Source: Chloroflexota bacterium | GTDB lineage: Bacteria; Chloroflexota; Anaerolineae; Promineifilales; Promineifilaceae | Reading direction: 5' to 3' | Assembly (NCBI GenBank): GCA_018004935.1 | Contig: JAGNBF010000002.1 | Coordinates: forward strand, 62,001-126,000 | Length of the DNA: 64,000 nt | Shown: positions 62,376 to 64,000 of the stretch, piece by piece | How the letters are laid out: each line of letters opens with the position of its first letter | Numbering within the stretch: position 1 is the first letter of the stretch | Position numbers and translations under genes: made by a program | The notes under the pieces: generated by a model | What the model saw: only the letters and a program-made list of their open reading frames with translations | What the model was told of the DNA's origin: nothing | The model's database searches: none

Positions 62376-63977
62376 TCAACTTAAAGGGTCAGGCGAAACC
62401 CGAGGATGAGGAATTTCTACAACAAGACTAAACCCCCCACTCGTCTGATTCTGAATGCTCAATCGTCCCCCCAACAAAGCGACTCGCTCACTAATCCCCA
62501 ACAAACCAAAATGGCCGGAACGGCTCAAAGCCGACAAATCAAACCCGTGCGCCATCCCCTTGCCATTGTCAGCAATCGTTACAGATAACATACGTGGCGA
62601 CGTATACGCCAGATTCACCTGAACCTGCGTCGCATTAGAATGTTTCCAGACATTGTTCAGCCCTTCCTGCACAATCCGAAAAATAGAAAGTTCAATCGTT
62701 TCAGGTAGCCGTCCAAAGGTTTCATTAAGCGTCAGCTCTACGGTAATACCAGTGCGCTCCTGCCAGCCTGAGGTGTAAGATTTGAGCGCGGCCCCCAAAC
62801 CAAGGCTATCAATCGTTGGCGGCCGCAGATTGCTACATATACGCCGAATATTCGTCACCAGCCGCCGGATATTATGCCGTACATCATCCAATTCGGCTGT
62901 CAGTGCCTTATCACCCTCACCCAGGCTGGCAATCTCCTCAAGCTGATAATTCAAACTCAGCAAATCCTGAATGGTCTCATCATGCAATTCACGAGCCAGA
63001 TGCTTCCGCTCCAACTCGCGCTGAGTCAACAAGCGCCGTTGGGCATCCTGTAAGGCCATATTCGCACTATCAAGCGCACGTACCTGCTCCGACAATTGTT
63101 CTAACAACTGTTGATTAATCGTGTCCCGAACAGCCAAATCTTGTTCCAACAACAACTGTTGATGTTGCAATATTTCGGCATGTTGTTTTGCCTTGTAATA
63201 ACTGTCCAAGGCCCAAATCACCGGAGTATGTTGTTGCCGCTCCGCCGTACCCACCAGAGCCGCCACAATTTCCTCCCGGTTCGTAGCATCGGTTTGTAAG
63301 GTAGCTGTCACTTCCCCCTGCCGCACCACAATGATCCGATCCGTCACGGCAAATAAATCATCCAGATTTTGACTACTAAACAAAACAGCGATGCCTTCTT
63401 GTTGCCAGGATTCAATCAACGACAACAATCTGGACTGGTAGGGGGAACTCATCGTAGCTGTGGGATCATCCACAATGCGGAGTTTGGCGGGAGACACCAT
63501 ACCCTGTGCCAGTGAAACTAATAGCCGATCATCACCCGATAGATTGCCTACTTTTTCGTGAAGGGTAGGGAATTCTACATTGAGCAAGGCCAAAACACGT
63601 CGGGCTTCCTCGTGCATTTTGCGCTGATTAAGAAGGCTACTACGCCGCCCCAGAATGGAGTGTGTGAGTTCATGACCGAGGAAAATATTGCTGGTAATAT
63701 CAAACTGATCCGCCAGCATCGGCTCTTGCTGGATCATGCCAATGCCAATTTTTTGCGCCTGAAAAGGCCAGGAAAGGGCACGCCCATCAAATACGAGGTG
63801 ACCACTATCGGGCATCAACAGCCCGGCTAAGGTTCGTGTCAATAAAGTTTTACCGGCGCCACTGCGGCCAGCCAGGCCCACAACTTCACCCGGGTGAATT
63901 TCCAGGCTAATATCTCGTAAGACCGTTAAGACGCCAAAACGTTTGGTAATACCGTGCGCCTGTAATAGGGGTTCCAT
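62376..63977 (-). CDS. Sugar-type ABC ATPase fused to a NarL-type histidine kinase
   Basis: 533 residues. Residues 1-245 are an ABC ATPase of the sugar importer (RbsA/MglA/XylG) type: Walker A GRSGAGKT (37-44), Q-loop 'MIQQEPML', signature NLSGDD (145-150), Walker B 'LRIVDDPTA' and 'LFSSQNLDDLF' at the switch region. The signature lacks the second glycine and glutamine, the catalytic Glu after Walker B is Asp171, and the switch His is Ser202, so ATP turnover is probably weak or lost. Residues 255-315 are coiled coil, then HisKA_3 with His332 ('ARELHDETIQDLL') and a HATPase domain ('GLNNVWKHSNATQ', 'IADNGKGM'). A nucleotide-binding domain thus replaces the usual sensor. Genes upstream are off the window. 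The ATG is preceded by a weak GATAGG. Confidence 0.9.
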   Translation of the reverse strand: MEPLLQAHGITKRFGVLTVLRDISLEIHPGEVVGLAGRSGAGKTLLTRTLAGLLMPDSGHLVFDGRALSWPFQAQKIGIGMIQQEPMLADQFDITSNIFLGHELTHSILGRRSSLLNQRKMHEEARRVLALLNVEFPTLHEKVGNLSGDDRLLVSLAQGMVSPAKLRIVDDPTATMSSPYQSRLLSLIESWQQEGIAVLFSSQNLDDLFAVTDRIIVVRQGEVTATLQTDATNREEIVAALVGTAERQQHTPVIWALDSYYKAKQHAEILQHQQLLLEQDLAVRDTINQQLLEQLSEQVRALDSANMALQDAQRRLLTQRELERKHLARELHDETIQDLLSLNYQLEEIASLGEGDKALTAELDDVRHNIRRLVTNIRRICSNLRPPTIDSLGLGAALKSYTSGWQERTGITVELTLNETFGRLPETIELSIFRIVQEGLNNVWKHSNATQVQVNLAYTSPRMLSVTIADNGKGMAHGFDLSALSRSGHFGLLGISERVALLGGRLSIQNQTSGGFSLVVEIPHPRVSPDPLS

Positions 63978-64000
63978 ATCAGCCTATCGTATCTTCAATG

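Follow-up and report, generated by a model that had tools for sequence, protein, structure and literature searches.

A sugar-importer ATPase domain fused to a histidine kinase in Chloroflexota: a candidate cytoplasmic sensor linked to sugar import

Introduction

Histidine kinases that draw their information from binding proteins or from ABC transporters are already known. ChvE of Agrobacterium signals to the histidine kinase VirA, and in the BceAB-BceS and PstSCAB/PhoU-PhoR systems the ABC transporter is a co-sensor of a histidine kinase. In Clostridium, XylFII-LytS unites a binding protein, a histidine kinase, and a response regulator for the sensing of xylose (PMC6321045); LuxPQ and TorT-TorS likewise pair a histidine kinase with a binding protein (PMC6321045). 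The cellobiose system CuaD-CuaS-CuaR devotes a second binding protein to sensing and drives the expression of the importer (PMC10384115).

Here we analyze a window of 64,000 nucleotides (G000:C145:62001-126000) from an 8.0-Mb Chloroflexota genome, which contains a gene that joins an ABC ATPase domain to a complete histidine kinase core. The locus resembles XylFII-LytS in that a binding protein, a kinase, and a regulator would together sense a sugar that is imported by an ABC importer; LytS, however, contacts XylFII through a ligand-binding domain of its own, whereas the fusion lacks any domain in or beyond the membrane and has an ABC ATPase for input. A second binding protein with a putative role in sensing, comparable to that of CuaDSR, stands beside the importer's own in some of the genomes, but CuaD binds the extracellular part of its kinase, and the route in the fusion likely runs from binding protein to permease, ABC domain, and kinase. 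The importer that adjoins the regulator of the fusion is ChvE-GguAB-like and so recalls ChvE-GguAB/VirA, although VirA is a membrane kinase that ChvE contacts outside the cell and that has no fused ABC domain. BceAB-BceS and PstSCAB/PhoU-PhoR consist of separate proteins with a membrane kinase and an active ATPase; in the fusion, by contrast, the ATPase is covalently attached and its catalytic motifs are altered. The HisKA_3 and HATPase_c core with a NarL-type partner is shared with NarX, UhpB, LiaS, and MctS, but the inputs of those kinases are membrane sensor domains rather than an ABC ATPase. Within the open-access papers searched we found no description of an ABC ATPase-histidine kinase fusion, nor of an ABC ATPase that serves as a kinase's own input domain; an automatic database listing of the domain order ABC_tran-HisKA_3-HATPase_c probably exists.

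Domain architecture of the fusion

The fusion gene is a single intact open frame (Table 1), and each of its three Pfam domains scores above the cut-off: ABC_tran (aa 20-174, 82 bits), HisKA_3 (aa 323-387, 48.5 bits against a cut-off of 24), and HATPase_c (aa 429-525, 38.9 bits against 26.4). In a structural database the N-terminal part is matched best by ABC ATPases, and sugar ATPases (xylose, ribose) rank at the top of its NCBIfam matches. For the C-terminal part, the best kinase matches in NCBIfam are MctS, UhpB, and NarX, and LiaS is also among the types matched. No transmembrane segment was found in the fusion, in which the highest 19-residue hydropathy mean is 1.1; HisKA_3 kinases of the NarX/UhpB type commonly, though not necessarily, have a membrane-spanning sensor part. 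An initial annotation, made from the DNA letters alone, had described this gene as a fusion of an ABC ATPase with HisKA_3 and HATPase domains, and that description is borne out.

Table 1. Coordinates of the fusion gene, its parts, and its partner (positions within the window)
Feature	Position	Strand	Evidence
ABC ATPase-histidine kinase fusion gene, 533 aa	62376..63977	-	Open frame, Pfam domains, full-length orthologues in 27/400 Chloroflexota genomes
CUT2-type ABC ATPase domain, aa 1-235: Walker A GRSGAGKT (37-44), Q-loop Gln, signature LSGDD (146-150), Walker B IVDD (D170, D171), switch His replaced by Gln203	63273..63977	-	Pfam, alignment, tree
Linker helix, aa 236-320, conserved block TPxIWAL(D/E)xYY	63018..63272	-	Alignment; low-confidence model
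HisKA_3 dimerization and phospho-acceptor domain, aa 321-390, H-box RELHDETIQD, His332	62808..63017	-	Pfam, alignment
HATPase_c catalytic domain, aa 391-527: N-box EGLNN...H, G1 DNGKGM, G2 GHFGLLG	62397..62807	-	Pfam, alignment
Response regulator gene upstream of the fusion, last 22 bases in the window	63979..64000	-	REC-LuxR-REC, 360 aa

The ABC domain and HisKA_3 are separated by a helix of 80 to 90 residues, in which P252 and W255 are invariant across the alignment. The stretch that leads from the ABC domain to the H-box (aa 245-335) is equally long in 25/25 orthologues; length differs from that of the window's gene in 13 ABC parts and in 12 kinase parts. Mean identity is 0.535 in the linker, 0.55-0.58 in the kinase parts, and 0.42 in the ABC part, which puts conservation of the linker only slightly below that of the kinase. 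An AlphaFold model renders aa 247-352 as a single continuous helix, but it is a poor model, built from three sequences, of low confidence (mean pLDDT 51) and silent on the dimer. The natural reading of model and alignment is a rigid signaling helix, and the fixed length of the linker suggests mechanical coupling between its ABC and kinase ends. The kinase core itself is well preserved: the H-box is intact in 26/26 sequences, with His332 and Asp333 invariant, as are N442, D470, G472, and G474 of the N-box and G-boxes.

Altered motifs of the ABC domain

We compared ATPase motifs across the 25 fusions with a complete ABC part; one partial copy (L042), which retains a His at the switch position, stands outside this count. 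The Walker A Lys and the Walker B Asp occur in 25/25 fusions and the Q-loop Gln in 24/25, and Walker A is invariant even in ABC parts that have drifted to about 29% identity. The fourth position of the signature is Glu in 24 fusions and Asp in one, the window's own gene (Asp149), such that LSGGQ has become LS[S/G]EQ or LSGDD. The switch His is found in none of the 25, its place being taken by Asp, Gln, Ser, Asn, Lys, or Gly. As a background, we took the 30 best-scoring ABC domains of the window's genome, a choice that favors canonical domains; signature position 4 is Gly in 30/30 of these, and the switch His is present in 29/30. The motifs of five unfused relatives are likewise canonical. The acidic fourth signature position and the missing switch His are both diagnostic of the fusions.

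The initial annotation had reported a retained Walker A and an altered signature, LSGDD, and both are confirmed. It had also placed the altered switch His at Ser202: the loss is real, but the aligned residue is Gln203. Its remaining substitution, Asp171 for the Walker B Glu, is present in the window's gene; we nonetheless rejected it as a diagnostic loss because the residue after the Walker B Asp is Glu in 20/25 fusions and Asp in only 5/25, and because Asp replaces the catalytic Glu in 6/30 ordinary ABC domains of the background. The acidic signature and the lost switch His are the alterations conserved in 25/25 orthologues.

The altered signature residue corresponds to the position of G551D in CFTR. 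That substitution causes a severe gating defect (PMC3434365). Each ABC active site combines a catalytic part contributed by one domain with a signature contributed by its partner domain, and in CFTR the changes in Walker B, switch, and signature yield a site that binds tightly and hydrolyzes badly (PMC3434365). By analogy, the ABC part of the fusion likely holds ATP with little or no turnover. Slow hydrolysis by this domain is possible, given that the catalytic Glu is still encoded in 20 of the 25 fusions.

Ancestry and distribution

The ABC domains of the fusions form one clade in a maximum-likelihood tree (100/99), and this clade groups with single-ATPase sugar importers (100/98), adjoining XylG-type domains. 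The ABC part thus falls in the sugar (CUT2) ATPase branch, in agreement with the sugar-transporter origin first proposed for it, and its single clade is consistent with one origin of the fusion. The nearest unfused ATPases, at about 40% identity, belong to importers at two loci (L067 and L068). Read by eye, these importers adjoin an apparent FGGY sugar kinase and an LsrF-like aldolase, neighbors that hint at what class of substrate the ancestral transporter handled.

A search of other genomes, which the initial annotation had proposed, found that 27 of the 400 Chloroflexota genomes sampled (the window's included) encode a full-length orthologue, at 43-59% identity. The threshold was a full-length match at E <= 1e-105; the next matches, at 1e-54 and weaker, cover the ABC part only. 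A 110-aa query spanning linker and H-box matched the identical 27 genomes and, at E <= 1e-12, detected no unfused linker-kinase protein among the 400. The linker query had no match among plasmids, and a scan of genome contigs yielded only two true relatives (L041 and L042). The two further genomes sampled from the family to which the window belongs lack the fusion.

Several of the fusion-bearing genomes consist of one to a few contigs, which excludes an assembly error, and the rate of change of the ABC part exceeds that of the kinase part by a factor of only 1.05-1.4. We rejected sequencing error and chance fusion on the strength of the 27 genomes, the lack of any unfused linker-kinase form among the 400 searched, and the constant linker length. 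Unaltered ATPase motifs in orthologues whose kinase is a separate gene, the pattern first linked to a chance fusion or a decayed gene, were sought and not found across the phylum sample.

The partner response regulator

The response regulator upstream of the fusion is encoded mostly beyond the window (L009:5979-7061, minus strand, equivalent to G000:C145:125979-127061) and has the architecture REC-GerE-REC, with a LuxR domain between two receivers. A single base separates its stop codon from the ATG of the fusion (TGA-T-ATG), and from this spacing the two genes almost surely share an operon. The regulator occurs in 28 of the 400 genomes, namely all 27 with the fusion and one other (Fisher p about 4e-41, relatedness of genomes ignored). 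All active-site residues of both REC domains, including both phospho-Asp residues, are conserved in 19/19 sequences. Receiver domains that flank a LuxR domain on both sides are an unusual layout, which suggests two phosphorylation inputs.

The one additional genome (G024) has no full-length match to the fusion. One of its contigs (C472, 6152-7310) carries frameshifted pieces of a permease gene described below (PERM2), followed by only the kinase end at 56% identity, and the regulator lies on a different contig; this copy of the fusion may be broken or misassembled. In Herpetosiphon-type genomes, fusion and regulator are far apart, and the regulator still adjoins a sugar importer at L070, L071, and L075. 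At three loci of one genus (L072-L074), the regulator adjoins a PadR-like gene and an ABC exporter, with no sugar importer there.

Neighboring importers

Past the window edge (L009), the gene order runs from the fusion and the regulator, both on the minus strand, to a divergent ChvE-type binding protein, a GguA-type ATPase, and a GguB-type permease. The ChvE model of NCBIfam was passed, whereas GguA and GguB are the best models for their genes yet score below the cut-offs. The ChvE-type protein at this locus (L009:7993-10242, plus strand, beyond the window) is a tandem duplicate in a 749-aa frame, with copies 95% identical in DNA over 943 bases; a 728-aa frame elsewhere (L053:5544-7730, minus strand) also contains two ChvE-type matches. 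A ChvE-group binding protein at L044 matches the solved structure 4rxu, which we take to be a Chloroflexus aurantiacus glucose complex, at E = 1e-181.

At 18 fusion loci, the vicinity of the gene contains a sugar importer or a fragment of a binding protein at the edge of a contig. The other loci are on short contigs (L050, L041), have a match cut by the contig end (L042), or have their genes apart (Herpetosiphon type).

At five loci (L044, L046, L047, L049, and L051), a second permease (PERM2, BPD_transp_2) and a second binding protein (SBP2, Peripla_BP_4) stand directly before the fusion; at L048, PERM2 is certain and the SBP2 frame is ambiguous. In these five to six genomes, the order PERM2-SBP2-fusion makes up a complete importer-like gene set with the kinase as its ATPase. 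PERM2 and SBP2 are closer to the permease and the binding protein of the L067/L068 importers (150-168 and about 100 bits, respectively) than to GguB and ChvE. Since PERM2, SBP2, and the ABC part of the fusion are all nearest to those same importers, three parts of one importer seem, from their sequence relationships, to have been co-opted jointly. Listing the neighbors, as had been suggested at the outset, thus tied the fusion to a response regulator and a sugar importer and, in six genomes, to a second permease, with SBP2 clear in five.

PERM2 had no match other than GguB in the window's genome, and no close PERM2 was found at this similarity in Chloroflexus-type and Herpetosiphon-type genomes. 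In the window's genome, the second permease has been lost or was never present; SBP2 is likewise absent next to the fusion, where the only binding protein nearby is the importer's ChvE-type protein.

Permeases usually dock on the region after the Q-loop of an ABC domain. Two fusions on the Anaerolineae side (L064:875-2545 and L065:16342-18015) carry about 27 inserted residues immediately past the Q-loop, and PERM2 is absent from both genomes.

Discussion

The explanation that we favor, and that we hold as a whole with somewhat better than even confidence, is that the fusion acts in the cytoplasm as a sensor histidine kinase, with the ATPase subunit of a CUT2-type sugar importer as its input domain; this subunit would be docked on a permease and coupled to the kinase through a helix, and the fusion would regulate the adjacent importer. 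Its ABC domain would bind ATP and hydrolyze it poorly or not at all. In the kinase dimer, two such domains would sit side by side against a sugar permease, at its cytoplasmic surface. In some genomes this permease would be the dedicated PERM2, paired with a binding protein of its own; in the window's genome, if there is any such partner, it would be GguB. Arrival of a sugar-loaded binding protein would change the shape of the permease and move the ABC domains together or apart, a movement that the helix of fixed length would relay to the kinase core and so alter the phosphorylation of His332. The phosphate would pass to the co-encoded REC-LuxR-REC regulator, which would then control the adjacent sugar importer. 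We infer from this arrangement a physical link between sugar transport and phosphorylation, and the findings support the coupling that the initial annotation had suggested. As PERM2 is absent from the window's genome and from the Chloroflexus and Herpetosiphon types, docking there is without support from a dedicated partner; in genomes of this kind, GguB may be the docking site, or the fusion may sense nucleotides.

Were nucleotide sensing the general function, the ABC domain would bind ATP or ADP in the cytosol and tune the kinase with no permease contact at all, and the importer would be connected to it through the regulon only. The missing permease of these genomes, a Walker A that stays invariant through extensive drift of the ABC part, and a protein with no transmembrane segment would all suit such an energy sensor. 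We nevertheless consider it unlikely, for it can hardly account for the PERM2 that directly precedes the fusion in six genomes, with SBP2 clear in five, and it has no need of a sugar-importer ancestry. Those same five to six importer-like gene sets, together with the catalytic Glu in 20/25 and the Q-loop Gln in 24/25, would be expected of a bifunctional subunit that continues to drive transport through a sugar permease (PERM2, or GguB alongside GguA) and signals as well. This possibility strikes us as more doubtful still, because the signature Gly has become acidic in every fusion, a change with a severe gating effect in CFTR (G551D; PMC3434365), and because no fusion with a complete ABC part has kept the switch His.

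About equally improbable, in our estimation, is an ABC domain that is only a scaffold for dimerization or docking, with ATP in a structural role and the kinase switched otherwise, for example by a further protein. Signature and switch residues lost throughout alongside a retained Walker A are what a folded, passive domain might display, but the linker of fixed length suggests that the two ends are mechanically coupled. Motif changes alone could also resemble decay; a chance fusion or a decaying gene in the window's genome is nonetheless scarcely credible, refuted as it is by orthologues in 27 genomes with 43-59% full-length identity, constant linkers, invariant kinase boxes, and an ABC part that evolves little faster than the kinase part.

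Returning to the permease-docked kinase, we note that its transport part has been joined to a kinase while the residues that burn ATP have been altered, and it therefore probably serves now as a receptor that prompts the cell to produce a sugar importer. A bolder version, to which we assign a little less than an even chance, holds that a whole importer (binding protein, permease, and ATPase) has been turned into a receptor that no longer transports sugar but reports its presence outside the cell and activates a second, functional importer.

ABC transporters are known to communicate with sensor kinases by way of separate proteins, and the path by which a signal of shape reaches the kinase is difficult to follow. 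The fusion, which joins both partners covalently through a linker helix of constant length and occurs in cultured Chloroflexota, offers a tractable system in which that path could be measured directly. The fusion suggests that an engine of transport became a receptor through the change of the signature Gly to an acid, the loss of the switch His, and the gain of a kinase.
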